From: Clostridiaceae bacterium BL-3
GTDB lineage: Bacteria; Bacillota; Clostridia; Clostridiales; Clostridiaceae
DNA length: 64,000 nucleotides
Direction of reading: 5' to 3'
NCBI GenBank assembly: GCA_902809985.1
Contig: CADDXC010000001.1
Span: forward strand, 2,542,001-2,606,000
A model generated the notes under the pieces. It was not told where the DNA came from. It saw only the letters and a program-made list of their open reading frames with translations, and ran no database searches. The position numbers and the translations under genes are program-made. Positions 15,863-33,734 of the stretch are shown here, in pieces; the first letter of the stretch is position 1, and each line of letters starts with the position of its first letter.

Positions 15863-16004
15863 TTTGTTCACTTCCGTTTTTTTGTCCATATCCTCATAAT
15901 TCACGCCACACACCCCTGTCCTCAGCATTTATATATTATATTTTCTATTATATACATTCATACTGACATAGACTGTCAGCAACAATAAAATTACCTATAT
16001 GTAA

Positions 16005-16077
16005 AAACAAAAAAGCCAATTAAGATGATTGTTCGCCTTAACCGACTCTTGAATTTCATTATTCAATTACAACCTCT
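16005..16077 (-). repeat. relic of the 3' end and terminator of a serine recombinase gene
   Basis: This stretch aligns with the last codons and terminator of the recombinase at 46609. It shares the GAGGTTGTAATTGAATAA ending (EVVIE-stop, here 16059-16076) and the GCCAATTAA(G/A)ATGAT hairpin followed by a T-run. The rest of the gene is absent; the Cfr-like gene lies upstream where the recombinase body would be. Confidence 0.7.
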
Positions 16078-16147
16078 TAAAAGCTTCTAAAATTAACTTG
16101 AAAGATATAGCAATTTTTAGAGTATATAATAAACCTACACTAATAAG

Positions 16148-16182
16148 AGCACAGCTACTAAAGTCTTCCTGCTGTGCTTTTT
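16148..16182 (+). terminator. orphan hairpin terminator
   Basis: AGCACAGC and GCTGTGCT arms followed by TTTTT on the plus strand. No intact plus-strand gene precedes it, so it probably belonged to a lost gene. Confidence 0.6.
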
Positions 16183-16236
16183 AATGAAATTATCATATCC
16201 ACACGTATTTTGATAGAAAGTCAACACTTAAAAATT

Positions 16237-16262
16237 AGCCCTCTTTTTTAATTGAGAGGGCT
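16237..16262 (-). terminator. terminator of the Cfr-like gene
   Basis: AGCCCTC and GAGGGCT arms followed on the minus strand by AATTTTTAAG. It begins about 30 bases after the stop codon at 16293. Confidence 0.75.
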
Positions 16263-16292
16263 TATTCTTAGAATAATATTTTCGAACCAACA

Positions 16293-17327
16293 TCACAATT
16301 CATTTTCACAATACAATTGTCCGCAGGCAGCGCCAATTTCAGAACCAAATTGTGTCCTAACAGTTGCACTAACGCCTGCTTCCTTTAATGTACTGCAAAA
16401 CTGGTTGATAGCACTCGATGGTTGAAATTTAAAAGTTGTTTTATTCGTAGAATTATAAGATATCAAATCAATATGATATAAATACTCCCATGAACCACGA
16501 TTTTTCAACAAACCTATAACTGCCTTTGCATGTTCTTTAGAATCATTAATCCCTTCAAGCATAATATACGCAAGAAATACTCTTCGTCCCGTATGAATAA
16601 TATGTTCATCTAATGTCTTCATTACCTCATGCAATGGAAATCTTTCATTTATAGGCATTAAATCGCTTCGTTGACTTTCAAATGGTGAATGAAGTGAGAA
16701 AATGAGATTTACTTGTGGAAATTCTTTGGTCAATTTTTGAATTCCTGGTATAACACCAATTGTTGAAATCGTAATTCTTCGTTGACTTAAACCAAATAAA
16801 TTTTGATCAGTCAAAATTTTTAGTGCACCAAATAACTCTGGATTTGCAAAAGCCTCACCCATTCCCATAAATGAAACACTATTCAAACTATGTCTATAGA
16901 AATAAAAATAAAGTAATTGATCAGTTATCTCATCAGCAGTGAGATTTCGTTTAAATCCAGTACTTCCAGTTGCACAAAAACGGCATCCAAAACCGCAACC
17001 ACATTGAGAAGAAATACAAAACGATTCCCACCCCTGTTTATACTGTAATCGAACAGCCTCTATTCTCTTTCCGTCTGTCAATTCAAATAACAATTTTTCA
17101 GCTTGCTTAGAATGTTGTGAAAAAACAGGTATTAAGCTAGATACATTATTCCCAAACTCATTTGTTAAAGCTATCCTTAATACTTTTGGCAACATAGCCA
17201 TATCATCAAAATTATCTATCCTTTGACGAAAAATAGCTTTTGCAAGCTGTATATATCTATAATTTGGTAAATTTAAATCTGATACTATTTGTTTTATTTT
17301 TTCATATTTTGTTTTTGTCTGCTTCAT
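16293..17327 (-). CDS. cfr: Cfr-family 23S rRNA (adenine-2503-C8) methyltransferase
   Basis: A 344-residue radical SAM methyltransferase. It keeps the cluster motif CGCGFGCRFCATG (Cys111, 115, 118) and the two further cysteines used in methyl transfer, Cys104 (ESFC) and Cys335 (AACGQLY), matching Cys105 and Cys338 of staphylococcal Cfr. The motif GMGEAFAN has Cfr-type EA rather than RlmN-type EP. Known Cfr proteins methylate A2503 at C8 and give resistance to phenicols, lincosamides, oxazolidinones, pleuromutilins and streptogramin A. This is a clostridial-type member, clearly different from classical cfr in sequence, so the exact activity needs proof. It lies downstream of the ABC-F gene behind its own leader peptide. 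Confidence 0.85.
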   Translation of the reverse strand: MKQTKTKYEKIKQIVSDLNLPNYRYIQLAKAIFRQRIDNFDDMAMLPKVLRIALTNEFGNNVSSLIPVFSQHSKQAEKLLFELTDGKRIEAVRLQYKQGWESFCISSQCGCGFGCRFCATGSTGFKRNLTADEITDQLLYFYFYRHSLNSVSFMGMGEAFANPELFGALKILTDQNLFGLSQRRITISTIGVIPGIQKLTKEFPQVNLIFSLHSPFESQRSDLMPINERFPLHEVMKTLDEHIIHTGRRVFLAYIMLEGINDSKEHAKAVIGLLKNRGSWEYLYHIDLISYNSTNKTTFKFQPSSAINQFCSTLKEAGVSATVRTQFGSEIGAACGQLYCENEL

Positions 17328-17331
17328 GTAG

Positions 17332-17430
17332 GCTTCCTCCTCGCTATTAATAGTTAGGAAGCAAAGCCAGCATTGGCGACTTATACTACTCCATGCAAAT
17401 GTCGCCTAAAACATCTGACTTTGCATGGAG
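17332..17430 (-). promoter_or_regulatory. translational attenuator of the Cfr-like gene
   Basis: Alternative pairings are visible. CTCCATGCAAA (17420-17430) inside the leader peptide pairs perfectly with TTTGCATGGAG (17389-17399). GGCGAC (17401-17406) pairs with GTCGCC (17375-17380). GCAAAGTCAG can instead pair with CTGGCTTTGC. Just before the gene, GCTTCCT (17356-17362) pairs with AGGAAGC (17332-17338), hiding the GAGGAGG ribosome site. There is no T-run, so control is probably at translation, released when a ribosome stalls in the leader. Confidence 0.65.
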
Positions 17431-17466
17431 CCTATTATGTGTTACTTGTATATTCATATTAAACAT
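17386..17466 (-). CDS. leader peptide of the Cfr-like gene (26 aa)
   Basis: A 26-codon frame starting 12 bases after the ABC-F stop codon. Conserved residues shared with the ABC-F leader are TH at positions 9-10, LH at 13-14, K16, D18, GDI at 21-23 and M25 just before the stop. I choose ATG 17466 over 17457 because it gives the same length as the other leader. The second half of the frame is built into the attenuator hairpins. A stalled ribosome here would alter those pairings. Confidence 0.6.
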   Translation of the reverse strand: MFNMNIQVTHNRLHAKSDVLGDICME

Positions 17467-17478
17467 ATTAATTCCATT

Positions 17479-18963
17479 CTATCCCTTCAATTTTATAGTT
17501 TTTGTTGCAACATTTTCACAAAATGCAATATCATGCTCAACAAATAAAATTGTGGGCTGATATTCAATTAACAATTTCTCAATCTGCATACGAGAAATTA
17601 CATCGATAAAATTCAATGGTTCATCCCAAATATATAAATGTGCCTGTTCACACAAACTTCTTGCAATCAATACCTTTTTCTTCTGTCCTCCACTAAAATC
17701 CTGGATATTCTTTTCAAACTGCTCTCTTGAAAAATCAAGCTTTCTAAGAATTGATTTAAATAAGCTTTCTTCAATACAATATTTATCTGCGTATTCAGAC
17801 AAGTTACCATATAAATCTGATGTATCTTGTGAAACATAAGAAATAATCAACTGACTACTTTTCCTCACAATTCCATTATGCGGGATTTTTTCTCCATAAA
17901 TTAATTTTAATATACTTGATTTCCCACTGCCGTTTTTCCCTTGAACAGCAATTCTTTCACCCTGCTCTATGGTGAAGCTTACTGCTTCACAGATAATTCT
18001 ATTATCGTATTGAATTGAAACATCCGCAAGTTCCACAAGCTTTTTACCATGGAAAGTAAGCGGTACTATTTTTAAGCTTTCATTGGATTCAATATTTTTA
18101 AGAAGCCTTGATTTTTCCTCAATCATATTCTGTTGTCTAGCTTCTATATTTTTAGCACGCTTCATCACTTTTGCAGCTTTATGTCCAACATACCCCTTAT
18201 CCAATTTGCTCCCGGAATTAGCAGCTCCATATTTACTGCTTTCAACACTATCTGACCATGCAGATGTACGTTTTGCTGAACTGGAAAGCCGGCTAATATT
18301 CTTTTTCAATTTTTCGTTTTCTGCTAGTTCAAAACCATCTTGTAAGTCTTTATTTCTCCACCATGAAGAAAAATTTCCTTTCTGTATCTCAATATTAGTT
18401 CTATTAATGGCCAAAATATGGTCAACGCAATTATCTAAAAAATACCTATCATGTGAAATCAGAATAAATCCTTTCTTCTTTTTTAAATAATTGCTTAGTT
18501 TTTTTCTAGCTTCAACATCCAAATGATTTGTAGGTTCATCAATAAGTAAGAAGGAGTTCTCCTTTAAAAACATAGCAGCTAGTAATGCTTTGGTCTGCTC
18601 TCCTTTAGATAGTGTATAAAATTGTCTATATAAAGCATCATAATCCATATCTAACAATGATAATTCTTTAATTATTTCCCAATCCATTGAATTTGGACTG
18701 ATTTCCCTTATGATATCTATGGTGAAATTTCCTTGTTCCTGCACCTTATAAGGAAAATATTCAAAAGTCACATCAGCTGAAATATTTCCATTATATTCGT
18801 ATTTCCCAAGCAGGAGATTTAAAAAAGTGGTTTTTCCCCTTCCATTTCTTCCGGTAAACCCCAATTTCCAATCTGTATCAATTTGAAAACTTATATTTTC
18901 AAAAATATTATCATAACTATCTTCATAAGCAAAGGTTAGGTTTGTAACATTTATTAAAGACAT
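17479..18963 (-). CDS. ABC-F ribosomal protection ATPase (Lsa/CplR-like)
   Basis: A 494-residue protein with two ATP-binding cassettes and no membrane segments. The first has GRNGRGKT (38-45), LSKGEQTKALLAA and LLIDEPTNHLD; the second has GKNGSGKSS, FSGGQKKKVLIA and LYIWDEPLNFID. The linker between them contains ELAENEKLKKNISRLSSSAKR, matching Lsa-type antibiotic-resistance ABC-F proteins. These enter the ribosomal exit site and displace lincosamides, streptogramin A and pleuromutilins. Length (about 495) and the WKLGFTGRNGRGKTT start fit Lsa/CplR. The start at 18963 follows GAGGAGGACAAA. It is the first gene of a likely operon with the Cfr-like gene. Confidence 0.88.
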   Translation of the reverse strand: MSLINVTNLTFAYEDSYDNIFENISFQIDTDWKLGFTGRNGRGKTTFLNLLLGKYEYNGNISADVTFEYFPYKVQEQGNFTIDIIREISPNSMDWEIIKELSLLDMDYDALYRQFYTLSKGEQTKALLAAMFLKENSFLLIDEPTNHLDVEARKKLSNYLKKKKGFILISHDRYFLDNCVDHILAINRTNIEIQKGNFSSWWRNKDLQDGFELAENEKLKKNISRLSSSAKRTSAWSDSVESSKYGAANSGSKLDKGYVGHKAAKVMKRAKNIEARQQNMIEEKSRLLKNIESNESLKIVPLTFHGKKLVELADVSIQYDNRIICEAVSFTIEQGERIAVQGKNGSGKSSILKLIYGEKIPHNGIVRKSSQLIISYVSQDTSDLYGNLSEYADKYCIEESLFKSILRKLDFSREQFEKNIQDFSGGQKKKVLIARSLCEQAHLYIWDEPLNFIDVISRMQIEKLLIEYQPTILFVEHDIAFCENVATKTIKLKG

Positions 18964-18996
18964 ATTTTTGTCCTCCTCTGTAATTAATAGTATAAA

Positions 18997-19075
18997 CAAC
19001 AAAGTCGGAACAACAGGCGACTGTGTTTATTTACTTCATATAAATGTCGCCTTCAGTATCCGGCTTTATATGGAG
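18997..19075 (-). promoter_or_regulatory. attenuator region of the ABC-F gene
   Basis: The same layout as before the Cfr-like gene. CTCCATATAAAGCCG (19061-19075) inside the leader can pair with TTTATATGAA (19035-19044) or, through AAAGCCGG, with CCGACTTT (18998-19005, one mismatch). GGCGAC (19046-19051) can pair with GTCGCC (19016-19021). The order and spacing are conserved between the two leaders while the sequences differ, with compensating changes in the first pairing. Confidence 0.6.
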
Positions 19076-19111
19076 ATTATCATGTGTTAGCAAAGTGTCT
19101 TTGTTTTTCAT
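19031..19111 (-). CDS. leader peptide of the ABC-F gene (26 aa)
   Basis: A 26-codon frame with AAGGAGG 12 bases upstream, a rather long spacing. It shares about 12 of 26 residues with the leader before the Cfr-like gene, including TH, LH, K, GDI and a penultimate Met, and ends at the same point relative to the hairpins. It is likely a drug-sensing upstream ORF. Confidence 0.6.
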   Translation of the reverse strand: MKNKDTLLTHDNLHIKPDTEGDIYMK

Positions 19112-19145
19112 AATATTAATTATCCTCCTTATTCTAATTATCTAT

Positions 19146-19185
19146 AAAAAATAAGAGCCGCAAGAAATTATCATTCTTACAGCTC
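19146..19185 (-). terminator. leader hairpin with T-run upstream of the ABC-F leader peptide
   Basis: On the minus strand GAGCTGTAAGAA pairs with TTCTTGCGGCTC (19155-19185) and is followed by TTATTTTTT. It lies before the 26-codon leader. Very short frames run through it (one reads MIISCGSYFL, another begins MSCKND), so it could be a second, transcriptional attenuation step. Equally it could end transcription from upstream. Confidence 0.5.
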
Positions 19186-19418
19186 ATAGATATACTAATT
19201 AAGCTAATCGTTATAGCATAACACAAGAGTATATATTAAGAGAAAAAAGAATAACTTTCTTGCATAAGTACGACAAAATAAACAAAATACATCCTTTTAT
19301 CTTTTTGTCAATTGTACTTTAAAAATTAGCAAGAAAATTAAATCATCTTTTCACCTCAAACTTCAACTTTTTTACATTGTATCACTATATATTGAAAAAA
19401 TCAACAAAAGCTTGAATC

Positions 19419-19624
19419 AACTACTTTGCTGATTTATTTTTTCCATAACACTTCCACTCCGATAGATATATCTTTTACTATATTGTACCCTAATATAGTA
19501 CTCCCATAAATAGCTGTATTTAACTGAATTTAAATTTTCAGGAATCTCACTTTTTTTATTAGAGAGCAATAACTTCTTCAACCATTTTGTACATGATCAA
19601 CTTTTTTATTTCCTGAAATATATT
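19419..19624. repeat. dispersed module repeat, copy B
   Basis: Nearly identical to 13567-13780. The 57-residue gene is cut after eight codons (MEKINQQSS then TGA), and the zinc-ribbon C terminus is frameshifted by one lost base (HVQNG then stop). No zeta-like frame follows. The remaining bases of 19190-19766 hold no gene. Confidence 0.75.
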
Positions 19625-19766: not shown

Positions 19767-21320
19767 TCACTCTTCTATTTTTTTCCTCATCTCGTCCTTT
19801 AATGCAGGTCTTCTATTGTTTTCTCTTATAATTCCATCATAGTAATCCTTAAACTCATCTTCTTTATCAAGGAAACTAAATATTTCTTTAATTATACTAC
19901 AATAATATGCTGCCTTAGCATATCGTGATCTTTTGGCAGCATCTATATGAAAACTAACCATTTCTTTAAGTATTTTCGTAGCTTCATCTATATAAAAATC
20001 TTTTTTATTTATATCTCCATTTAGTACTAACATGTCTTCAATGCCCTCTGCATCATATTCATCGGTTTTTAATATAAAGTCATTTAAATTTTCATAACTT
20101 AATTTTTTATCATAAAATAAACGGTATAATAAAGATCTGCATGTGTATTTTAAATAATAATATTTATCATATCCACTTGATTTCTCTACAACCTTTAACA
20201 GCTCATCTACTTTCCCTTCATAGGATAGAATCTTTATAAATATCCATGTAGATCCATAACTTTTCATAACTCTTAGTCGTTTTTTAGAATCCCCCATAAA
20301 ACTTTCTAAGTTATTGATCTTTTCCGCAAAATAATGGGCTTTTTTATAGTTTTTATAAGTAGTATCTTCATAGAATAAATTTTTTGCAGCACAGAATGCT
20401 CCCTGAAAATCATTTAATTTTTCAAGGGAAGTTATAAGCATATTTTGTAATTCAACTCTTATTGATTGAATTTTAATCTTATTTAATGCCTCTTCAGTTA
20501 ACTCTATACTTTCTTTCCATCTTTCTAATTCAAAATATGCTTTTACAATGTCGTAATAAAAATTAACGTTATATTTGAAAAAACTTTTAGCAAGCTCTAT
20601 TCTGTTATATCCTTTTTCATACCTTTCATAAAAGTTTTTAAGGAGCTCAAAAATTAACTGTTGTTTACTCCATTCATCATATAACTCTATTTTTTCTCTT
20701 ATAATTTCTTCTAAAATAGAGATATCATTTATATGTGAAAGCATAGCTTTTTCGCATTTTTCTCCAAAATTCAACCATTCTTCAAAACACTTATCTATAC
20801 TTTCTTTCTTGTCTTTTATACAATTTATGATACAGGTATAGTATTCATCAAATACATCTTCCCAATTGATATCTATGTAATATTCAGGGTTTTCTGTTCC
20901 TAGAATTTCTTCATCAAAAGAAGCTTTGTAGATGCAATTTAAAAGTAGTTCAAAGACTTCAAAAGCAACATCATAATTTTTGCTTCTAGAATATAGTAAA
21001 ACTGTATTAAAGTATTCAGTAAACTTTTGTACCCACTCACTATCTTCAAAATTCACATCATCATAATTATCTAAATAATCATCATAATAAACTTCTATAT
21101 AATATTTCCCTTCAAGACAGCTTTTATAAAAGTCTTTAACTTCTTCTAGAAATTCCAGCTCACCTTTTTTATTAGCTGATTCTATAGCCAATTTAGCGTC
21201 TATATTTTTAGAAATAAATTGTATTTTTTCAGTTTCATCAAGTCTATTTAAAAGATCAACAACTAGCCCTGCTAATTTTTCTTTATCAAATTTTAATAGT
21301 ATTTCTATTTTTTCATCCAT
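19767..21320 (-). CDS. large helical-repeat (TPR-like) protein, unrecognised
   Basis: A 517-residue acidic, all-helical protein. TPR-like helix pairs are visible in the middle, such as FFKYNVNFYYDIVKAYFELERWKESIELTEEAL and IRVELQNMLITSLEKLNDFQGAFCAAKNLF. The C terminus reads RSRYAKAAYYCSIIKEIFSFLDKEDEFKDYYDGIIRENNRRPALKDEM, which resembles the tail of SWIM-zinc-finger proteins, but no zinc cysteine set is present. It may be a solitary C-terminal relative of those proteins. The start follows AAAGGTAAAACTT. It is followed by its own terminator and preceded by the UPF0158 gene on the same strand, 72 bases away. Function unknown. Confidence 0.6.
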   Translation of the reverse strand: MDEKIEILLKFDKEKLAGLVVDLLNRLDETEKIQFISKNIDAKLAIESANKKGELEFLEEVKDFYKSCLEGKYYIEVYYDDYLDNYDDVNFEDSEWVQKFTEYFNTVLLYSRSKNYDVAFEVFELLLNCIYKASFDEEILGTENPEYYIDINWEDVFDEYYTCIINCIKDKKESIDKCFEEWLNFGEKCEKAMLSHINDISILEEIIREKIELYDEWSKQQLIFELLKNFYERYEKGYNRIELAKSFFKYNVNFYYDIVKAYFELERWKESIELTEEALNKIKIQSIRVELQNMLITSLEKLNDFQGAFCAAKNLFYEDTTYKNYKKAHYFAEKINNLESFMGDSKKRLRVMKSYGSTWIFIKILSYEGKVDELLKVVEKSSGYDKYYYLKYTCRSLLYRLFYDKKLSYENLNDFILKTDEYDAEGIEDMLVLNGDINKKDFYIDEATKILKEMVSFHIDAAKRSRYAKAAYYCSIIKEIFSFLDKEDEFKDYYDGIIRENNRRPALKDEMRKKIEE

Positions 21321-23260: not shown

Positions 23261-23614
23261 AATATTTCCCTTTCCCATAATTGTAAATTAACTTTACTAT
23301 ACAATATTATCGCTTAATTTTATACATTGAAATAGTTTTTTACAAATAAAATTGCTTCACTGTCCACATATTGATACTATTAAAATCCGCTATTTAAAAC
23401 AACTTAACATTAAGATACCTGTTAAGAATGCTGCTGAGGTAAAAATTCCAACTACTAAATTCTGACATATGGTTATAATAAGAAAATAGATGTGTTTTTT
23501 CCAATTACTGATTTGCGCATACACTAATTATTTCGGAAAGAATTAAGCAGGCAGCATTTCATTTAAATGATCAGCGTTAGGCAGTTTTCGATAAATCAAA
23601 AGGAGAGATTAATA

Positions 23615-24541
23615 ATGTTAGAAAAAGTAAAAGGAACCGATTTATTTTACCAATATTATTCACAATGGATTTCAGTATACAAAGATGGTGCTATAAGAAA
23701 AGTGACTATGGATAAATATCTTATGACTAAAAAGTGGCTTGAAAAACTTATTCCAAACCTTATAATTTGCGATTTAAACCGTATAACCTATCAGCAATTA
23801 CTTAATGACTATGCTGCATGGCATGAGCGTCAAACGACGATGGATTTTCATCATCAATTAAAAGCTGCAATTTTGGATGCAGTGGATGAAGGTCTAATTG
23901 ACAGGGATCCTACGCGAAAAGCAATAATCAAAGGGAAAACTCCAAAAGATAAAAAAATAAAATACCTGAATCAGTTTGAGCTGCATACTCTATTAAGCAA
24001 TCTCGATTTAAAGCCTGAAGTAAGCTGGGATTGGTTCATACTATTAGTTGCAAAAACCGGGATGCGCTTTTCAGAAGCATTAGCGCTTACACCTAAAGAT
24101 TTTGATTTTTCACATCAGATTCTTTCAATCAGTAAAACATGGGATTATAAAGGAAATGGCGGCTTTCTTCCAACAAAAAATCAATCCTCCGTACGCAAAG
24201 TAGAAATAGACTGGCAAACAGTAATTCAGTTTTCTGAGTTAATAAAGGGATTGCCGGAAGGCAGCCCTATATTTACAGAAAACAAAGTATATAATTCTAC
24301 TGTTAATAACATATTAACAAGACACTGTAGGGATGCAAAGATTCCAGTAATTTCAATTCACGGATTACGCCACACCCATGCCTCTCTTTTGTTATTTGCC
24401 GGTGTATCAATTGCAAGTGTTGCCAGAAGGTTAGGGCATGCTAGTATGACAACAACCCAAAAAACCTATTTACACATTATTCAGGAACTTGAAAATAAAG
24501 ATGTAGATTTGGTTATGCGTTCATTGTCAGGATTAAGTTAA
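23615..24541 (+). CDS. tyrosine recombinase next to hsdS cassette
   Basis: A 308-residue site-specific recombinase. The N-terminal SAM-like core-binding domain starts GTDLFYQYYSQWIS. The catalytic domain has TGMRFSEALAL (first Arg), HGLRHTHAS (His-xx-Arg) and GHASMTTTQKTYLH (His and nucleophile Tyr). AAAAGGAGAG fixes the start at 23615. It converges on a silent hsdS fragment that starts directly at its stop codon. Recombinases in this position are known to invert or exchange hsdS target-recognition segments in Streptococcus and Lactobacillus type I systems, so the same job is likely. A phage or transposon integrase is the alternative, but no such element is attached. Confidence 0.85.
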   Translation: MLEKVKGTDLFYQYYSQWISVYKDGAIRKVTMDKYLMTKKWLEKLIPNLIICDLNRITYQQLLNDYAAWHERQTTMDFHHQLKAAILDAVDEGLIDRDPTRKAIIKGKTPKDKKIKYLNQFELHTLLSNLDLKPEVSWDWFILLVAKTGMRFSEALALTPKDFDFSHQILSISKTWDYKGNGGFLPTKNQSSVRKVEIDWQTVIQFSELIKGLPEGSPIFTENKVYNSTVNNILTRHCRDAKIPVISIHGLRHTHASLLLFAGVSIASVARRLGHASMTTTQKTYLHIIQELENKDVDLVMRSLSGLS

Positions 24542-27120: not shown

Positions 27121-28710
27121 TTAAATTTTTACACCTAAAATCTTCAATTGTTCATTGATCTTTGCTTCAAGTTCTGCAATTTCTTTATTGTCTTGCTCTA
27201 ACTGCTTATTTACTTCTTCCAAATCAATTGGAGCTTCTTCTTCAAAAGTATCAACATAACGTGGAATATTCAAGTTAAACTCATTTTCTCTGATTTCCTC
27301 AATTGATGCCAAGTGAGCATATTTATCAACATCTTTGCGTTCTTTAAATGTACTTACGATTTTATCTATATTTTCATCATTCAAGTTATTTTGATTCTTT
27401 CCCTTTTCAAAATCACTGCTTGCATCAATAAATAGTATGTCTTTGGTTTTACGATTCTTCTTAAATACCAAAATGACTGTTGGTATACTTGTCCCATAGA
27501 ATAAGTTAGACGGCAGACCAATAACCGTGTCAAGATAATTTTTTTCAATGAGAGTCTGACGGATTCTGCCTTCTGCTGCACCGCGAAACAGCACACCATG
27601 AGGCAGAATAATAGCCATTGTGCCAGTGTTGTTTAAATGATATATGCCGTGCAATACAAAAGCATAATCTGCTTTTGAGGCCGGTGCCAATTTCCCATAA
27701 TCGCCAAAACGTGGATCTTTTAATTTGGTTTTATCATTATCCCATTTCGCAGAATATGGCGGATTTGCAACCACTGCATCAAAACTGCGCGGGTGGTCAA
27801 TCCCTTTTCCATCTGGTCCATCCGGCCAATCGTTTTCCAGAGTATCAGCATTATTTAGTGTCATATTGTTATAAGACACATTGTGCATCATCAAGTTCAT
27901 ACGGGCCAAGTTATACGTTGTTGTATTCAACTCCTGACCAAAATACTTCATAGGAGTACCATCAGGCAATTCCTGTCCAACAGTAAGCAGCAAGGAACCT
28001 GAACCCATTGCCGGGTCATATATATTGAAAAATTCATCTGATTTTTCTACACCGCTGGTGACTATTTTAGCCAAAATCTTACTTACTTGATGAGGCGTAT
28101 AGAATTCCCCGCCCTTTTTACCAGCACTTGCAGCAAATTTACCAATTAAATATTCATAGATTTCACCTAGAATGTCTTTTCCATCATCTCCCTTGTATTC
28201 AATTTCGTCCACTAACTTAACTACATTGTTAAGTGATTTTGCACGTTCATTTGTAGAACTTCCAAGACGTGAATCCCCCAGGTTAATATCGTTGAATATG
28301 CCACGAAAATCCTTCACCGCTTCTTTATTTAATTCAGCATTTTTATTAAAGTCATCAAAAATAGTCTGATAGTCGCTGGGAATAACTTGTGCATCATTAA
28401 TTTTATTAATCAAAGACTCCCATGTATCATCTGGCGCAATTGCATACCCCAAACTTGATGAAATATCCTGTAAATAGTCATCCAAATCTGCACCTGCCGC
28501 TTGTTTTAGATAAGCATCATTGATAGATTCTCCCTCTGCAATGTCAATAACATTATTTTTCACTAAATACTGCTCTTGATGTTCCGAAAGGTATCTATAA
28601 AACATAAATGCCAAGATATAGTTTTTGTACTCCGACGCATCCATTGTGCCGCGCAGTTCATTTGCCATAGCCCAAAGTTTACTGGTAATTGTTTGTAGAT
28701 TATTGCTCAT
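27121..28710 (-). CDS. hsdM: type I restriction-modification methyltransferase subunit HsdM
   Basis: A 529-residue N6-adenine DNA methylase. The N-terminal HsdM helical domain (LWAMANELRGTMDASEYKNYILAFMFYRYLSEHQE) is followed by the SAM-binding part (FYTPHQVSKILAKI, IYDPAMGSGSLLLTVG) and catalytic NPPYSAKWD near residue 310. It modifies the adenine in the site chosen by HsdS. It is the last gene of an hsdS2-hsdR-hsdS-hsdM operon on the minus strand, 28 bases after hsdS. Start follows AAAGGAATTAAAAC. Confidence 0.95.
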   Translation of the reverse strand: MSNNLQTITSKLWAMANELRGTMDASEYKNYILAFMFYRYLSEHQEQYLVKNNVIDIAEGESINDAYLKQAAGADLDDYLQDISSSLGYAIAPDDTWESLINKINDAQVIPSDYQTIFDDFNKNAELNKEAVKDFRGIFNDINLGDSRLGSSTNERAKSLNNVVKLVDEIEYKGDDGKDILGEIYEYLIGKFAASAGKKGGEFYTPHQVSKILAKIVTSGVEKSDEFFNIYDPAMGSGSLLLTVGQELPDGTPMKYFGQELNTTTYNLARMNLMMHNVSYNNMTLNNADTLENDWPDGPDGKGIDHPRSFDAVVANPPYSAKWDNDKTKLKDPRFGDYGKLAPASKADYAFVLHGIYHLNNTGTMAIILPHGVLFRGAAEGRIRQTLIEKNYLDTVIGLPSNLFYGTSIPTVILVFKKNRKTKDILFIDASSDFEKGKNQNNLNDENIDKIVSTFKERKDVDKYAHLASIEEIRENEFNLNIPRYVDTFEEEAPIDLEEVNKQLEQDNKEIAELEAKINEQLKILGVKI

Positions 28711-28738
28711 TGTTTTAATTCCTTTCTTTTAAATTATT

Positions 28739-29878
28739 TCATATAAACATCTGTTGTAGTAATGCTTTCTTTTGTTCCTGCAAATGATTTAACTTACGTT
28801 GATGAAGGGTGATAAGGTGGTCAATATCTTGGAAAAAGTCACCTATTTGTTTCTGTTCCTTATAATCAGGTATCAAAACATCTACATTATTAATAGCAGT
28901 TTTGGATAAACTTGGCACACCTGTTGATTCATCTTTTTGTTTCCACTTTATATTTTGAAAAATATCATAAACAAAATTTAAATTATTATTATTCTCAGGA
29001 ACCGCATAAAATAAGGTATCCACAGTCCAAAAAGGTGCTCTCAATATGTATGGTTTATCAATTGTACCTTTTCTCCCAATACCTATCGCATCTTCTTTAT
29101 ATGATAAAGCTTCATTCACACTTAGCATATATCCACCAGTTCCATAGACTGGAATTTTACCCTCTGAAAGGTGCTTATAGTCTCTCCCGCTTTTAACATC
29201 AACTATATTTTTTAGCTTACGCTGTTCCCAAGGGTCAGTAAATCCCGGAAAACGAAGTTCTGGAAAATTCTCACCTTTTTTCGGGAACATTTTTTGTAAC
29301 AAACCTTTCTTCTCATCCTTCAGATGATTTAACTTACGCTGATGAAGGGTGATAAGATTATCCAAATCTCTGAATAAAGATCCTATTTTAAATTGTTCGT
29401 CTTTATCAAATGGAACTTTTATTTCAATTTCAGATAAATCATTTGAGTTAATAGCAGGATAACTTGTTCCTGTACTTCTATCCAAAACTGCTTTAACAAA
29501 TCTTTCTTCTTGAAGTCTGCTAAGCAAAAAATAGCTATCAATATTAGGACGCATTTGAGCGTATCCAGTCGAGAAAACATAGTTATCGTAAGGTAAGTCG
29601 TACAAATAATTATTCTTTTGATATGGTCTTACTGTTTGATAAAATACATCACCACGTTTTGCTAAACGCTGTGCTCTTGACGGTGCATTTCCTTTTATTT
29701 CAGTCCTATGACTAATCAAATCTGTACCATTAACACTTTCCAAATCAACGTATTCGAATTCATCTGGTAAAGTAGATTTTGGATTAAATTCTGCTATATT
29801 TTTTAGTTTACGCTGTTCCCAAGGGTCGGTAAATCCTGGAAATCTTATTTTAGGTACATTAGCTTTATTTTTATCCAT
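28739..29878 (-). CDS. hsdS: type I specificity subunit HsdS
   Basis: A 379-residue subunit with two target-recognition domains. Each half starts with FPGFTDPWEQRKLKNI and ends with DLDNLITLHQRKLNHL or its variant, the conserved spacers that set half-site distance. The second domain (codons in 28800-29232) reads the same at nucleotide level as the silent cassette at 24572-25004. The near-identical DNA repeats at each domain border are natural exchange points, so the specificity of this protein is likely variable. The start at 29878 follows AGGAGATAAA. Confidence 0.93.
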   Translation of the reverse strand: MDKNKANVPKIRFPGFTDPWEQRKLKNIAEFNPKSTLPDEFEYVDLESVNGTDLISHRTEIKGNAPSRAQRLAKRGDVFYQTVRPYQKNNYLYDLPYDNYVFSTGYAQMRPNIDSYFLLSRLQEERFVKAVLDRSTGTSYPAINSNDLSEIEIKVPFDKDEQFKIGSLFRDLDNLITLHQRKLNHLKDEKKGLLQKMFPKKGENFPELRFPGFTDPWEQRKLKNIVDVKSGRDYKHLSEGKIPVYGTGGYMLSVNEALSYKEDAIGIGRKGTIDKPYILRAPFWTVDTLFYAVPENNNNLNFVYDIFQNIKWKQKDESTGVPSLSKTAINNVDVLIPDYKEQKQIGDFFQDIDHLITLHQRKLNHLQEQKKALLQQMFI

Positions 29879-29952
29879 TTTATCTCCTATCTTAACTGTC
29901 AATTGATAATTAGCAGTTCAATAATTAATTTTAAAGTTTTATTAGATATGAA

Positions 29953-32900
29953 TTAGCTTTTAGCATGCTCATCAGCCAATTCATAAATGGCTTTACGCAA
30001 ACCATTACGGTACTTGATTTTAGACAAAGATTGTATCTTTTCGTCATGTGCCAACATCTTATAGTCAACGCTTGCTTTGGCAATTATATCCCGGATTTGA
30101 CCAGCATCATCTAAATCCTGCATGCCATAACGATGATGACTAAATAGTTCACGCATCTGAGCACTTGTGATAATGTCTGTAATTCCCCACTTCACCCGAA
30201 AATCCAGGAACATTCTATCAAGGCTGACATTGTTGGCCGCCTGAATAATTTGTTCACTATCTCTCAATTTTACTGGATATTTAAGATTATAACCTTCGAT
30301 TGGAAAATGCCCTTTTATAATAGCAATTGCTGCATTCATAACCTTCGCAGCATAATTTCTGTCTTCCAAGCCAGTGGCAAATTGATCAATTTTCTCTTTC
30401 GTAGCTTGCGCCTCCTGGCTCTTGCCCTCATGCACCTGGTTTAATAATTGTTCAACCAGTTCAGTTAGATAATCATAATCTATTTTCACATCCTTCACAT
30501 GGGTCATTTTCAACTCAATTTGATAAAAAGGAATTTTCTTCTTTTTTGACATATATTGTTTAAGCTCATTGGTTAAAACTGTGGTAAGCATGGTTTCTTG
30601 AGCACTTGTCATACCTAATTTTTCAACTAACTCATCAGGATTGTCGTAATTGAAACCTACTGTATTTCCATCAACTTCTTCAGGGGTATATTGTTTTAAT
30701 TTAGCCATTCCAGCATTATAATCACGCAGTAAATCAAACATATATTCTTTTTGCTTTTCAGAAGGCGGTAATTGCTGGAACTTATTAGTTAAGGTGCCTA
30801 ATTTCTGAGCAACCTCTTTAACTTCATTAAACTCATCTTCAAAAGGTTTAGCGATAATACCATCTCTTTGATTGGATTTACGCTGCTCATTTTCTGATAA
30901 AATTGCTGAATCTTTATTGGCATAAATTGCGAGAGCTTCATTCATCAGCTTCTCATTTTGAGCAGGCCAGCGATAGTTCACAATACGCCCCCAGGGTTTT
31001 TCCTGCATGTCAGCAATACGATTTGTCCTTGAATAGGCTTGAATAAGTCCGGCTCCTTTAAGTGTTCTATCTACATAAAGTGTATTAAGTTCCGGTGCAT
31101 CAAATCCAGTCAAAAGCTGATCTACCACAATCACAATATCCAGGAAGTTCTTGTCCGTAGCAGTTTTATTCAAACGACTAGTAACATCCTGTGTATATCC
31201 AGCTACATCATCCATGCCAAAGCTTGTACCAAATTCTTTGTTATAGGCCTTTATAGCATCATATAAACCTTGATTGGTGGCAAGCATGCTATCATTATTG
31301 GATGAGTTCTGGCTAAATGTAACTGCTACTTTTAATGTCTGACCACCATTTTTCCTATTCTCATCATTTACTTGCTGAAATTCACTAAAATACATCATTG
31401 CCATTGGAGTACTGGCTTTCCCGCCACCAACATGAGTGGTAAAGAGGGCATTATATTTACCTTCATTTGAACGATTTCTCCAGTTCTTGAAAATATCTTC
31501 AACTACTAACTTGATATGATCCGGATTTTCATCATAAAAGCTTGGTTCAACTGCGTCATCCATATCTTCCTGACTTAGATTATTGATCTTATCTTTAATT
31601 TTTTGTTCAGTCCACTTCGGATAGCGTTCCCGGTAGAAATTTGGCAGATATTTGGTTTTCATTTGCTCTTCATCAATGGTTGTTTCAAAATCCACTTTAA
31701 AACCTAAAACATTTCTGTCTGCAATTGCTTCACGAATAGTATAGGCATGTAGCAGTGGTCCAAAAATGTCTTCAGTTCGCAAACCGCTGGTAGTTTCATC
31801 AAACATGGGTGTTCCTGTATAACCAACCCAGGCGGATTTTCTAAAAGCCTTTTGTATCTTTGCAAAACTTTCGCCGCCAGTTGAACGGTGTGCCTCATCC
31901 ACGATAAATACAATATTTTTATCAGGTGCTTTAAAAGATTTACGTTTCACTAAAGTATCAAGTTTTTGAACAGAAGTAACAATGATACTATTATCTTTGC
32001 TCTTTAATTTACGGCTTAAATCAGTAGTATTATTGGTATCTTGAACACTTCCAATCATATCTTCACCAGCATCCGGGTCATAGGCCCTGTAATTTTCATT
32101 TGTCTGTTTCGTTAAAGCAATTCTATCCACTACGAAGACAACTTTGTCAACTTTGGGCATGCGGCTTGCAAGCCATGCTGTTTTAAAACTGGTTATGGTT
32201 TTGCCGGAACCAGTGGTATGCCAAACATAACCTACTTTATTTGTACCCAGTTCAAAATCAACTTTCTTTAATTTTTCAATTACATTCTGAGTGGCGTATA
32301 CCTGATACGGACGCATTACTTTTAACATTTGTTTGTTTTTTGTGCCATCCAAAATCATATAATTAGTAGCCATCTGATGTGCCATTGGAATACTTAGCAT
32401 TGAATCCGCAAACTCTTTCCAATTACGAACAATGGTATTATCACTTTTACGCTGCCAGTTAAAAGCAAAGTCCTTATTGAACTTATCCGGCGTGGTATTA
32501 GCCATATACTTCACGTTATTTGGCGTAATTGCCACTAATATCTGCAAGGTGGAAAAAATATCACGATATTGGTTTTCTTTGGAATATTGATGTATTTGAT
32601 TCAGCGCTTCATTGACATCATGCGTATCACGTTTTTCTTCAATTTGTATGATAGGCAAACCATTAATAAGAAGTGTAGTATCAAAACGACGATTTTGTTT
32701 CCCGGCGATAACTGCAGGGCGTTCAATTTGATTAACCACTTGATATACCGTATCCCCAGCACCGATTTGTTTTTGATCGAAAACCGTTAAAAACACGTGA
32801 CGGCCGTCATCTAAATCAATTTCAATCTGCGATACACCATTAAGTCCATATAAAAATTGTCCGGCTTCATATGGTGTTTGAATATCAGATATAATCTTTT

Positions 32901-33162
32901 TAACTTGATTAAATTCAACAGTACTTAGTGGATGATCAAGTGTATTTTGATTGTGCCTCTCAAGAATTTCTTTGAAGTTATCCCAAAGCTGGTCTGTAGT
33001 TTTAATTTTTGGTTCATACTTCCACAGCTTTGTTTTCACACAGTAATCAGCAGATTTTTCACTAACCTTAAAGCCACCAATTACTTCCAAATGTTCAGGT
33101 TTAGTTATGGTTCCACTGGTAATATATTGTATTAATTCAGTTTCAAATTGCTCTTCATTCAT
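29953..33162 (-). CDS. hsdR: type I restriction endonuclease subunit HsdR
   Basis: A 1069-residue ATP-dependent translocase-nuclease. The N-terminal nuclease domain has LNGLPIIQIEEKR (the D/E-xK-type catalytic region), followed by helicase motifs HTTGSGKTITSFK (Walker A), DEAHRS (motif II), GYTGTPMF (motif III) and DQLLTGFDAPELNTLYVD plus QAYSRTNR (motifs V and VI). It is full length and uninterrupted. Its start overlaps the stop of hsdS2 (ATGA), and the main hsdS gene follows 74 bases later. Confidence 0.95.
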   Translation of the reverse strand: MNEEQFETELIQYITSGTITKPEHLEVIGGFKVSEKSADYCVKTKLWKYEPKIKTTDQLWDNFKEILERHNQNTLDHPLSTVEFNQVKKIISDIQTPYEAGQFLYGLNGVSQIEIDLDDGRHVFLTVFDQKQIGAGDTVYQVVNQIERPAVIAGKQNRRFDTTLLINGLPIIQIEEKRDTHDVNEALNQIHQYSKENQYRDIFSTLQILVAITPNNVKYMANTTPDKFNKDFAFNWQRKSDNTIVRNWKEFADSMLSIPMAHQMATNYMILDGTKNKQMLKVMRPYQVYATQNVIEKLKKVDFELGTNKVGYVWHTTGSGKTITSFKTAWLASRMPKVDKVVFVVDRIALTKQTNENYRAYDPDAGEDMIGSVQDTNNTTDLSRKLKSKDNSIIVTSVQKLDTLVKRKSFKAPDKNIVFIVDEAHRSTGGESFAKIQKAFRKSAWVGYTGTPMFDETTSGLRTEDIFGPLLHAYTIREAIADRNVLGFKVDFETTIDEEQMKTKYLPNFYRERYPKWTEQKIKDKINNLSQEDMDDAVEPSFYDENPDHIKLVVEDIFKNWRNRSNEGKYNALFTTHVGGGKASTPMAMMYFSEFQQVNDENRKNGGQTLKVAVTFSQNSSNNDSMLATNQGLYDAIKAYNKEFGTSFGMDDVAGYTQDVTSRLNKTATDKNFLDIVIVVDQLLTGFDAPELNTLYVDRTLKGAGLIQAYSRTNRIADMQEKPWGRIVNYRWPAQNEKLMNEALAIYANKDSAILSENEQRKSNQRDGIIAKPFEDEFNEVKEVAQKLGTLTNKFQQLPPSEKQKEYMFDLLRDYNAGMAKLKQYTPEEVDGNTVGFNYDNPDELVEKLGMTSAQETMLTTVLTNELKQYMSKKKKIPFYQIELKMTHVKDVKIDYDYLTELVEQLLNQVHEGKSQEAQATKEKIDQFATGLEDRNYAAKVMNAAIAIIKGHFPIEGYNLKYPVKLRDSEQIIQAANNVSLDRMFLDFRVKWGITDIITSAQMRELFSHHRYGMQDLDDAGQIRDIIAKASVDYKMLAHDEKIQSLSKIKYRNGLRKAIYELADEHAKS

Positions 33163-33734
33163 TTTTCACCTGCCTCCTCTAATTTGGATAATATGATTTT
33201 TGTTTCAAGTTCTGCTGCTCTATTCTTAACAGCTTGCAGCCTTAACTGATTAAAATAGACTTGTCCTATAATTTTTTGCTTATCTATGAAAGGTATATTC
33301 GGTATTTTAAGCTCTTTAAGCTGCTTCAGGGTATATTTTAAAACTTGTGAACCCTGCAGTCCCAACACAAACTGTTTCTTGATTGTTTTGTTTTCATTAA
33401 TAAGATAAACCAAAAACTTCGGATCAATGTTATTGCCAGGTAATAACTTAACGTAGTTTTGCGTATAAAGATATCCCTCGTGCTCTTTTCTTACCATGGC
33501 TGCAGTTCCCGTGATTAAACTAAACACCACATCACCATGGCACAAGGTATTTACTTTGTCATTGGTTCTAACTTGTTTATTGTCCGCACCGTTTGAAATA
33601 ATACCCACCAGATCATCCGTTAAATCTGTTTGACTATAATAGGCAAAAAGCGGTGCTTTCTCATCAAACACTTCAGTAATTCTAAACTGGGGGGATCCAC
33701 TTACTAATTCAACCAATTCACTCAACTTTTTCAT
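33159..33734 (-). CDS. half-length type I specificity subunit (HsdS2)
   Basis: A 191-residue protein with one target-recognition domain: KLSELVELVSGSPQF at the start, NKVNTLCHGDVVFSLITGTAAMV, and LKELKIPNIPFIDKQKIIGQVYFN at the end. This is the layout of an HsdS half. It precedes hsdR and overlaps it, an unusual position because a full hsdS is already present. Half subunits can pair to make a complete specificity unit, or modify complex assembly. It may provide an alternative recognition site. Confidence 0.8.
   Translation of the reverse strand: MKKLSELVELVSGSPQFRITEVFDEKAPLFAYYSQTDLTDDLVGIISNGADNKQVRTNDKVNTLCHGDVVFSLITGTAAMVRKEHEGYLYTQNYVKLLPGNNIDPKFLVYLINENKTIKKQFVLGLQGSQVLKYTLKQLKELKIPNIPFIDKQKIIGQVYFNQLRLQAVKNRAAELETKIILSKLEEAGEK

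Follow-up and report, generated by a model that had tools for sequence, protein, structure and literature searches.

The lsa-type ABC-F gene and the cfr gene of Clostridiaceae bacterium BL-3 are very likely each governed by their own five-segment bistable translational attenuator, which is built on a modular RNA scaffold and in which ribosomes would stall at codons 9 and 10 of a 26-codon leader. The scaffold likely defines an undescribed family of modular attenuator RNAs, with one scaffold serving five or more kinds of gene, an exchanged leader peptide and reading frame, a fixed stall position and copies on staphylococcal plasmids; it is probably a reusable alarm before unlike genes that senses drug-stalled ribosomes. 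Both genes lie on the minus strand of the window (the whole stretch of 64,000 nucleotides that was analyzed), cfr 151 nt downstream of the lsa-type gene, with the following features.

19031..19111 (minus strand): leader ORF of lsa, an upstream frame of 26 codons, MKNKDTLLTHDNLHIKPDTEGDIYMK
19082..19087 (minus strand): Thr9-His10 of the lsa leader, proposed stall site with His10 in the P-site, from conservation and the stall scan
19000..19087 (minus strand): attenuator RNA scaffold before lsa, from covariance model R2 (87.6 bits) and covariation; segment 1 at 19060-19075, segment 2 at 19034-19051, segment 3 at 19016-19021, segment 4 at 19000-19008
18972..18981 (minus strand): segment 5 and Shine-Dalgarno (SD) sequence of lsa, ACAGAGGAGG, a possible weak partner of segment 4; pooled lsa/cfr pairing is not better than in shuffles
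17479..18963 (minus strand): lsa-type ABC-F ribosomal protection gene, 494 amino acids, from NCBIfam Lsa family NF000167
17386..17466 (minus strand): leader ORF of cfr, an upstream frame of 26 codons, MFNMNIQVTHNRLHAKSDVLGDICME
17437..17442 (minus strand): Thr9-His10 of the cfr leader, proposed stall site, from conservation and the stall scan
17362..17442 (minus strand): attenuator RNA scaffold before cfr, from covariance model R2 (88.9 bits) and covariation; segment 1 at 17415-17430, segment 2 at 17389-17406, segment 3 at 17375-17380, segment 4 at 17362-17370
to 17356 (minus strand): anti-SD extension of cfr segment 4, CUUCCU
17331..17340 (minus strand): segment 5 and SD sequence of cfr, GGAGGAAGCC, pairing with segment 4 and its extension in the minimum-energy fold
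16293..17327 (minus strand): cfr gene, predicted member of the 23S rRNA A2503-C8 methyltransferase family, 344 amino acids, from TIGR04432 and NF011024

The identity of both proteins is supported by NCBIfam models. Where the preliminary description had left a choice between Lsa and CplR, the ABC-F protein belongs to the Lsa family (NF000167, 762.8 bits against a cut-off of 750), and CplR was ruled out (NF043038, 211.9 bits against 780). The Cfr protein scored 598.4 bits with TIGR04432 (cut-off 550) and 642 bits with NF011024 (cut-off 468).

The two leaders were first noticed because of their likeness, which proved to be real: 12 of 26 residues are identical without gaps, a count reached by none of 200,000 shuffles with Met1 fixed (shuffle maximum, 10), and the leader DNAs are homologous. 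The short upstream ORF is conserved as an ORF among relatives, except in two species (L015 and L021), where a frameshift after codon 15 removes the frame while the stems are retained. Eight of the 12 common residues (codons 13, 14, 16, 18, 21, 22, 23, and 25) lie in stem codons, and in a divergent homologue Leu-His becomes Leu-Arg and the penultimate Met becomes Thr via a compensatory base pair. Since most of the common residues are in stem codons, we rejected the whole 26-residue peptide as the sensor. The earlier idea of one sensor peptide controlling two enzymes holds insofar as many species keep the leader before lsa and cfr, but the common object is mainly RNA, and the scaffold also occurs elsewhere. 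Strong conservation outside the stems is found only at Thr/Ala9-His10. Among 31 distinct lsa and cfr elements retrieved with the RNA model, codons 9 and 10 encode Thr-His in 28 and Ala-His in 3, with varying third bases; this route does not require the peptide, even though the model was trained on Thr/Ala-His-type sequences. It is the less biased count, because the leader pattern (RCN CAY at codons 9 and 10) and the filters require His or Thr/Ala/Ser-His, so that conservation among pattern-derived leaders is partly built in. Thr-His is also retained in a staphylococcal plasmid lsa(B), a Priestia lsa, and L074. The cfr leader of the window has a weak SD sequence (score 0).

The hairpin arms quoted in the preliminary description (CTCCAT.-AAAG, GGCGAC/GTCGCC, and AAAG-C-G/C-G-CTTT) are present in the window. 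Folding z-scores of the two leaders are -4.02 and -4.25, and for each of them all 200 shuffles folded less stably. The minimum-energy fold of cfr contains both the 1:2 and the SD-masking hairpins; that of the window lsa contains GGCGAC/GTCGCC and lacks the first hairpin (1:2). The leader contains mutually exclusive helices (1:2 as against 1:4 with its nested 2:3), and 1:2, 1:4, and 2:3 covary. On 39 sequences, helix 1:2 was paired in 95.1% of cells with 26 double-changed, and helices 1:4 and 2:3 together in 96.6% with 24 double-changed; none of 500 shuffles equalled the paired percentage, the double changes, or the covariation score, and 62 to 118 of 500 attained the counts of pairs and pair types. 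This 39-row alignment (A2) omits three 28-codon leaders, L018, the frameshifted L015 and L021, the interrupted L026, the long-spacer leaders (L010/L047, L013, and L019/L050), L074, and the motif-missed L040 cfr leader. With divergent members included (35 sequences), there were 70 double-changed cells versus at most 9 when slid, and for helix 1:2, 38 versus at most 3, alignment A5 being fitted to 1:4 plus 2:3.

The stem between segments 4 and 5 behaves differently by class, as scored on 53 of 59 elements (six had no recognized SD and start and were omitted here and in the stall scan). For pooled lsa and cfr, it scored 13.9 versus 13.5 for shuffled segment 4, which is not above shuffles, and the 4:5 pairing in lsa was dropped on this account. 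In the MFS class, the score was 20.9 versus 12.8 for shuffles and versus a mean of 18.0 (largest, 21.8) for segment 4 swapped in from other groups. A scan of positions 16000-19600 found terminator-like sites at 19155-19185 (minus strand), 16980-16996 (minus strand, inside cfr), and 16237-16262 (plus strand), and none between leader and gene for either lsa or cfr; because this interval is free of such a site, we read the layout as that of a translational attenuator. Rfam gave no match at the window element or in the 10 relatives submitted.

A loose leader pattern built from the window leaders and their relatives occurs in the 64 kb only at these two places (0 in 100 shuffles), and a covariance model run on the whole genome matched only the two window elements, the next match having an E value of 3.55. 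A search for the motif before other cfr and ABC-F genes, which the preliminary description had proposed, found it (H..L[HY]) before 28 of the 30 lsa loci retrieved, out of 39 present, and before all 7 cfr loci in a gene-first family sample. Conservation in relatives, on which that description had staked its reading, likewise emerges when 84,980 genomes are scanned for the leader first: of 33 sites, 22 precede lsa, 9 precede cfr, and 2 are cut by contig ends; the scan and the sample overlap (for example, L059 and G046), and their counts are not independent. The same kind of scan gave no match in viral contigs.

The leader-first scan gave the impression that the leader is confined to lsa and cfr. 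Covariance models overturned this impression: the scaffold, with other leader peptides, also stands before Mef-like MFS pumps and before CD3324-family, ceramidase-like, and APH-like genes, drug pumps making up many of these further genes. Scaffold and leader likewise precede lsa(B) on staphylococcal plasmids, by both the model and the sequence; an apparent lack of the leader there was an artefact of a filter requiring His or Tyr at codon 14, which also missed the L040 cfr leader. No covariance-model match up to an E value of 1 was obtained for cfr(C) (L170), cfr(D) (L171), a Paenibacillus lsa (L172), or a Monoglobus ABC-F gene (L174), and among 26 lsa loci of a class sample (L072 to L097) only L074 matched. 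E values were calculated per genome, so that with 206 genomes and a limit of E ≤ 0.05 some 10 matches would nominally arise by chance; 13 sites with E values of 0.003 to 0.05 were retained by judgement, because each precedes, in the same orientation, a gene of one of these kinds.

To locate the switch, we folded the leaders with a ribosome masking them codon by codon. Pairing of segments 1 and 4 is favored with the P-site 12 or 9 nt upstream of segment 1 (-12/-9), His10 being at -9. The 1:4 probability rises from 0.24 to 0.77/0.72 at -12/-9 and returns to 0.24 in cfr; the corresponding values are 0.18, 0.51/0.56, and 0.09 in the MFS class, 0.44, 0.57/0.45, and 0.20 in the CD3324 class, and 0.38, 0.52/0.44, and 0.29 in lsa. 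High values also occur far upstream, in cfr at -27 (0.57) and in the ceramidase type at -27 and -24 (n = 2). The uORF of each element was chosen by script and differs from the choice by eye for L059 cfr, L132, and L147. We used 1:4 pairing as the read-out in place of equilibrium SD opening, which proved nearly flat when calculated for 45 leaders with lengths of 26 or 28 codons. At the predicted stall, opening is slight in cfr (0.17 to 0.28) and in MFS (0.39 to 0.46), and the SD of the lsa class does not open (0.41 to 0.31-0.35). The calculated opening being small or absent, a kinetic effect must therefore be assumed.

In the proposed order of events, segment 1, inside the leader ORF, would pair in the OFF state with segment 2 at the ORF end, so that segment 4 would remain available to segment 5 at the SD and start region. 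A drug-stalled ribosome at codons 9 and 10, with His10 in the P-site and Thr or Ala penultimate, would cover no more than the 5' half of segment 1 and block 1:2; the exposed 3' half would then pair with segment 4 around the nested 2:3 helix, and the ribosome-binding site of the gene would be released. The scaffold would set the required stall, with the P-site about 9 to 12 nt upstream of segment 1, and in relatives, joined to other peptides and frames before other genes, each leader would place its own motif there: Thr-His in lsa and cfr, Cys/Thr-Ile in most MFS leaders (as in those of the form M-[KR]-L-[CT]-I-V), and Lys-Leu-Lys in one CD3324 leader, that of L142. The family would comprise Lsa ABC-F, Cfr, Mef-like MFS, putative regulators of the CD3324 family, ceramidase-like, and perhaps APH-like genes, and copies would have arrived on staphylococcal plasmids together with lsa(B).

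Which drugs would act on the Thr-His leaders is a separate matter. Phenicols or oxazolidinones, which stall with a penultimate Ala, Ser, or Thr according to the accessible part of PMC8987054, are possible inducers, though we lean against them. The penultimate residue at the predicted stall is Thr or Ala in 23 of 23 lsa and cfr leaders tabulated, and cfr genes are listed under phenicol and oxazolidinone resistance. Against this, in the same part of that source, Ala provides a stronger context than Thr, and no increase in the MIC of chloramphenicol or linezolid is seen with LsaA (Table 1, PMC8987054); lsa is far more common than cfr (39 versus 7 of 194 genomes in the family sample), and MFS leaders prefer Cys (10 of 19) over Thr (6 of 19) at this place.

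It is rather unlikely that the attenuator RNA is genuine and the peptide irrelevant, any slow or stalled ribosome throwing the switch and Thr-His being a relic of common descent. Such a reading would fit the location of most common residues in stem codons, the frameshifted 3' half of the peptide in L015 and L021, the considerable 1:4 probability in cfr at -27, and ribosome stalling by lincosamides and pleuromutilins, which takes place at start codons or immediately behind them and depends little on context, as stated in the portions available of PMC10201436 and PMC12421871. However, four of the five larger groups change most sharply at -12/-9 in the stall scan and not at the start codon, all 31 distinct model-first lsa and cfr elements keep Thr/Ala-His while third codon positions vary, and Cys or Thr followed by Ile occupies the corresponding place in 13 of 19 MFS leaders.

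An amino acid starvation attenuator sensing the supply of His-tRNA is very improbable: the His codon at the switch position is invariant and, if in the A-site, would set the P-site at -12, another peak, but it is a single conserved codon and not a run, other scaffold members have Ile, Val, or other residues there, and none of the downstream genes tested belongs to His metabolism. Least probable of all is a recent duplication of upstream DNA without regulatory function, which would account for the homologous leader DNAs and for lsa lying directly upstream of cfr in 6 of the 7 cfr genomes of the family sample but is contradicted by the covarying stems, by cfr leaders kept without an lsa found in the stretch upstream (about 0.8 kb in L051 and 7 kb in L055) or with only an lsa remnant (L061), and by the occurrence of the two leader classes across several genera.

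The stall-responsive attenuators of the window would act downstream of a single transcription attenuator that may gate lsa and cfr as an operon. Judged by sequence, a micro-uORF, an antiterminator, and an intrinsic terminator of the VmlR/CplR type are all present upstream of the lsa leader.

19376..19404 (minus strand): candidate promoter TTGATT-17-TACAAT with extended TG, a consensus match only
19338..19346 (minus strand): first-tier micro-uORF ATG ATT TAA (M-I), from sequence
19252..19263 (minus strand): first-tier antiterminator arm GCAAGAAAGTTA, complementary to the 3' arm of the terminator, from sequence and recurrence in relatives
19155..19185 (minus strand): first-tier intrinsic terminator, from the terminator scan

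The TTTTCTTGC stretch at the micro-uORF occurs in 35 of 40 distinct lsa upstream regions, and most of the listed relatives have a longer, MI[NK]FSC-like uORF. Promoter matches in the region number 21, against a shuffle mean of 18.9.

In ermC, segments pair as 1:2 and 3:4 and rearrange to 2:3. Stalling on the leader peptide of an ermC-type attenuator uncovers the ribosome-binding site, as described in the text available of PMC13410324. The window elements resemble this type in their leader ORF, competing hairpins, masked SD, and presumed switching by a stalled ribosome; they differ in topology (1:2 and 4:5 versus 1:4 around a nested 2:3) and in that one scaffold serves several unrelated gene families with differing peptides and frames. 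The upstream tier (M-I uORF, GCAAGAAAGTTA, and terminator 19155-19185) resembles VmlR/CplR leaders, which in the accessible parts of PMC9226507 and PMC10201436 consist of a micro-uORF, an antiterminator and terminator, and an SD-masking hairpin. In those parts, one 3-codon uORF serves the whole leader, whereas the window adds a 26-codon leader with its own switch and, unlike VmlR/CplR leaders, repeats it before cfr; this leader is absent among the uORFs named there (MIN, MR[I/M], MK[L/Q], and MAGN of LsaA). For cfr of pSCFS1, the portion available of PMC8752094 describes two overlapping uORFs and an upstream RNA element and proposes drug-induced stalling, which is similar to the arrangement before cfr here. 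The staphylococcal cfr of plasmid pGMI17-006 (L070) has no scaffold match, while lsa(B) on the same plasmid matches. The region upstream of lsa(E) on an enterococcal plasmid (L071) can be aligned to the leader region with a best score of 66, where shuffles reach at most 42, and matches the model weakly (29.4 bits); its last 150 bases are identical to those of L009, which belongs to the window's own family and still carries the TTTTCTTGC, GCAAGAAAG, and terminator-arm motifs. Unlike the window elements, it has a degenerate leader frame and several degenerate segments, and by its sequence it is a decayed copy. Our literature search did not find a paper describing this attenuator element.

If this reading is true, a single RNA platform would explain how unlike clostridial resistance and efflux genes may be switched by ribosome-targeting drugs, and the same platform would cover lsa(B) on staphylococcal plasmids. 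The RNA switch would be separated from the sensing peptide, so that the stall codon could be predicted from sequence alone, and leaders of unassigned specificity would form a catalogue of natural drug-sensing peptides. It would also be a warning that the resistance conferred by such genes may stay silent until induced.

The Lsa-type ABC-F gene (lsa), cfr and their two leader frames lie on the minus strand of the window:

18963 to 17479, minus strand: Lsa-type ABC-F gene
17327 to 16293, minus strand: Cfr gene, downstream of lsa
19111-19031, minus strand: 26-codon leader frame of lsa
17466-17386, minus strand: 26-codon leader frame of cfr

The gap between the two genes is 151 nt. The proposal in the preliminary description that the two leaders are homologous was borne out, given that they have 12 of 26 residues in common, while the best of 200,000 shuffles of one leader (Met1 fixed) reached 10 and none reached 12. 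The leader regions can also be aligned as DNA, with identical runs including TAACACAT and AGGCGACATTT. A search of the whole 3.86-Mb genome with R2, a covariance model of the element, yielded two elements, those of lsa and cfr, the next match having an E value of 3.55. The closest named genome met, that of Clostridium luticellarii DSM 29923, carries both genes on one contig, with 100% identical proteins. The neighborhood of the operon also contains a gene for a 517-amino-acid protein without a Pfam match directly upstream (19767-21320), a phage-type integrase gene ∼4 kb upstream (23567-24541), and type I restriction-modification genes (HsdM, HsdS, HsdR, and a second, partial HsdS; 27121-33734).

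The search for the leader motif before other cfr and ABC-F genes, suggested in the same description, was likewise positive. In a sample of 194 genomes from the bacterial family of the window, where Cfr was found in 7 (family cutoff) and Lsa in 39 (E ≤ 1e-150), the motif lies upstream of all 7 cfr loci and, of the 30 lsa loci fetched, 28; two of these 28 lsa leaders carry a frameshift (loci L015 and L021), and an insert interrupts a third (L026). In this last case (L026, also L144 of genome G123), the inserted sequence splits the leader before codon 25 and leaves the distal stem arm downstream of the insert. For a leader-first search, whose sample overlaps with the gene-first one, we used a loose pattern built from such leaders (T/A-H-D/N ... 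G-D ... M-E/K-stop), which had two matches in the window and none in 100 shuffled versions. Scanning genome_contigs (84,980 species) yielded 33 sites on 31 stretches from Clostridium, Tissierella, Terrisporobacter, Metaclostridioides, Lacrimispora, Anaerocolumna, Anaerosolibacter, and unnamed clostridia, followed by Lsa (22), Cfr (9), or the contig end (2), and by no other gene. The same pattern had no match in viral_contigs. By coordinates, lsa is directly upstream of cfr in six of the seven cfr genomes of the family sample, and the seventh has only an lsa remnant there. No lsa was found in the ∼0.8 kb fetched upstream of the leader-bearing cfr of Clostridium sp. KNHs205 (L051) or in the 7 kb fetched upstream of that of an Anaerocolumna metagenome-assembled genome (L055). 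Genome G130 has three element copies within 7 kb (L143): an orphan, a copy before an lsa remnant, and a copy before cfr. Elsewhere in this genome, a fourth precedes another lsa copy (two pieces by tblastn).

The attenuator RNA scaffold comprises five pairing segments: CUCCAUGCAAAGUCAG (segment 1, in the cfr element), GGCGACAUUUGCAUGGAG (segment 2), GUCGCC (segment 3), CUGGCUUUG (segment 4), and segment 5, located at the Shine-Dalgarno (SD) sequence. Helix 1:4 is mutually exclusive with both 1:2 and 4:5; the proposed OFF state combines 1:2 with 4:5, and the proposed ON state forms 1:4 around a nested 2:3 when a ribosome stalls at leader codons 9 and 10. Across 39 lsa and cfr sequences, 95.1% of the cells of helix 1:2 are paired, with 26 double-changed cells, and 96.6% of those of 1:4 plus 2:3, with 24. 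Paired cells, double-changed cells, and covariation score were matched by 0/500 shuffles; for the counts of pairs showing double changes and of pair types, 62 to 118/500 shuffles did as well. These shuffles ignore the relatedness of the sequences, and many double changes distinguish the two classes, lsa and cfr, and may reflect few events. Pairing fell to 24 to 49% and 29 to 47%, respectively, when the partners were slid by one to three columns. In alignment A5 (35 sequences, including divergent members), helices 1:4 and 2:3 have 70 double-changed cells (at most 9 when slid; pair types matched by 0/500 shuffles), and 1:2 has 38 (at most 3 when slid; pairs with double changes matched by 3/500), the latter count being less biased because A5 was fitted to 1:4 and 2:3. 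The hairpin arms that the preliminary description gives for the two window leaders are present; the minimum-energy fold contains 1:2 and 4:5 in cfr, but 2:3 without 1:2 in lsa.

The idea of one shared sensor peptide has to be narrowed, since the Thr/Ala-His pair is kept, but stem codons encode 8 of the 12 residues common to both window leaders. L074 is divergent (Lsa 65% identical; leader MNSAEQIVTHDLLRIVSVPFGEIYTE), and its stem pairing is kept via an A-U to G-C exchange that replaces His14 with Arg and Met25 with Thr; in L015 and L021 the stems are retained although the frame is lost after codon 15. Among 38 distinct 26-residue leaders, codons outside the stems are variable (2 to 3 bits at codons 2, 4, and 7), the exceptions being codon 9, which is Thr apart from one Ala (0.18 bits), and codon 10, which is always His (0 bits), this set having been picked by filters that require a Thr/Ala-His-type motif. 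The lsa/cfr elements found by RNA model (31 distinct) have Thr-His in 28 cases and Ala-His in 3. In 42 leaders, the third base differs at codon 9 (ACA 32, ACG 9, and GCG 1) and codon 10 (CAT 34 and CAC 8, the latter all in cfr), whereas the stem codon His14 is CAT in 41, TAT in 1, and never CAC.

To predict the ribosome position, 53 elements were folded codon by codon, masking everything up to the ribosome leading edge, set at the P-site first base + 15 after the 16-nt toeprint in PMC9226507.

Mean probability of helix 1:4 for P-site offsets of -15, -12, -9, and -6 nt relative to segment 1
cfr (7 elements): 0.24, 0.77, 0.72, 0.24
MFS class (15): 0.18, 0.51, 0.56, 0.09
CD3324 class (11): 0.44, 0.57, 0.45, 0.20
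lsa (15): 0.38, 0.52, 0.44, 0.29
APH-like (1): 0.02, 0.34, 0.35, 0.01
Ceramidase-type (4; weak effect): 0.37, 0.40, 0.47, 0.32

Exceptions are cfr, with 0.57 also at -27, and two ceramidase-type elements, with 0.86 to 0.87 at -27 and -24. The codon at -9 is His in all 23 tabulated lsa and cfr leaders, preceded by Thr (21) or Ala (2); with 1:4 peaking at -12/-9, the modeled RNA therefore indicates the same codon pair as peptide conservation. At equilibrium, the stall was predicted to open the SD itself slightly in cfr and MFS and not at all in lsa. The 4:5 stem of the MFS class reached 20.9 versus 12.8 for shuffles (largest of 200 shuffle means, 15.0), but up to 21.8 with segment 4 from other groups swapped in; that of the pooled lsa/cfr group was not above shuffles (13.9 versus 13.5). 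We infer that the order of folding during transcription matters.

It is possible, if rather doubtful, that phenicols and oxazolidinones induce the Thr-His leader: its penultimate Thr or Ala fits the stall-context rule for these drugs in PMC8987054, and both drug classes are among the resistances listed for Cfr genes, but lsa is far commoner than cfr, and the same paper saw no rise in the chloramphenicol or linezolid MIC with LsaA. Lincosamides, pleuromutilins, and streptogramin A stall ribosomes at or just after start codons, according to PMC10201436 and PMC12421871, and this region lies upstream of the calculated switch point.

The scaffold extends beyond lsa and cfr. R1, a covariance model built from lsa/cfr elements, matched in 5/391 genomes of the class and 41/194 of the family, with weak matches upstream of other genes. 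In the family, R2 yielded 76 places in 59/206 genomes at E ≤ 0.05, a threshold at which ∼10 chance matches are nominally expected, E values being per genome; the gene context argues that most of the weak sites are real. All 36 places away from lsa/cfr, plus the orphan, were read individually and tallied by hand:

lsa or cfr loci, assigned by coordinates (an lsa remnant and an interrupted leader counted in): 39
Orphan beside the lsa-cfr locus of G130: 1
Before MFS transporters (MFS_1 above the Pfam threshold in 18/18, four as gene pieces only): 18
Before CD3324-family proteins (11 pass the NCBIfam cutoff): 12
Before ceramidase-like proteins (L148, L153, L158, L159; Ceramidase_alk in three): 4
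Before an APH-domain protein: 1
L146, esterase frame 92 nt downstream: 1

For four MFS proteins, the nearest NCBIfam models are TIGR00900 and Mef macrolide pumps, all under cutoff. The twelfth CD3324-type protein (L168) is 43% identical to that of L166 (tblastn), and the fourth ceramidase-like protein (L153), without a Pfam match, is 58% identical to that of L159; we know of no link between ceramidase-like proteins and ribosome drugs. The small CD3324-family proteins after the scaffold are weakly Mor-like (L132, L142, L152, L156, L157, L160-L163, L166, L169), and it is possible that they are drug-induced regulators. Further downstream of the CD3324-family gene, L142 has an ABC transporter and L132 a Vat-like acetyltransferase gene, which we do not call Vat since it scored 243 bits with NF000311 against a cutoff of 300. 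The typical MFS leader is M-[KR]-[LF]-[CT]-I-V-[LF]-[AT]-P-C-[KR]-V; such leaders cross segment 1 in another frame, some stop inside the hairpin loop, and the predicted stall falls at Cys/Thr then Ile in 13/19 elements (L146 counted in). In L142, the predicted stall residues Lys-Leu-Lys recall Arg/Lys-X-Arg/Lys, the macrolide motif described in PMC8298421.

The element also occurs on mobile DNA. On the staphylococcal cfr plasmid L070, lsa(B) carries it (38.8 bits by covariance model; L070:2870-3060) with a Thr-His leader, MVLELDVTHELLRISRYNLSNIYGVI. Nine plasmid records contain an identical stretch. In two Priestia plasmids, 69% of it is represented by an 84% version, and one of these plasmids (L173) has Thr-His within a shorter leader. 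A decayed leader-region copy with degenerate frame and segments is found at lsa(E) (L071:2983-3049 and L009:1396-1462). No covariance-model match was obtained at cfr of L070, cfr(C) of L170, or cfr(D) of L171, and among 26 lsa loci of the class sample (L072-L097) the element is present in L074 only.

Leader attenuation that responds to ribosomes is a known kind of regulation. Rfam gave no match at the element in the window or in 10 relatives. Neither the scaffold nor its topology appears to have been described in the literature searched, which included few subscription journals, and the same goes for its reuse with different sensor peptides and its position upstream of clostridial cfr. Upstream of the lsa leader lies a further, transcriptional tier, with a promoter-like site, a micro-uORF, an antiterminator arm, and an intrinsic terminator, resembling the VmlR and CplR leaders (PMC9226507 and PMC10201436). 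The micro-uORF is M-I in the window and L028 and M-I-N/K-F-S-C-like in many relatives; at 19338-19346 of the window an early stop leaves M-I, where many relatives continue to a Cys codon. Similar pieces lie upstream of some lsa genes without the 26-codon leader. If lsa and cfr are cotranscribed, a single transcription switch would gate both genes, and each would have a separate translation switch of its own.
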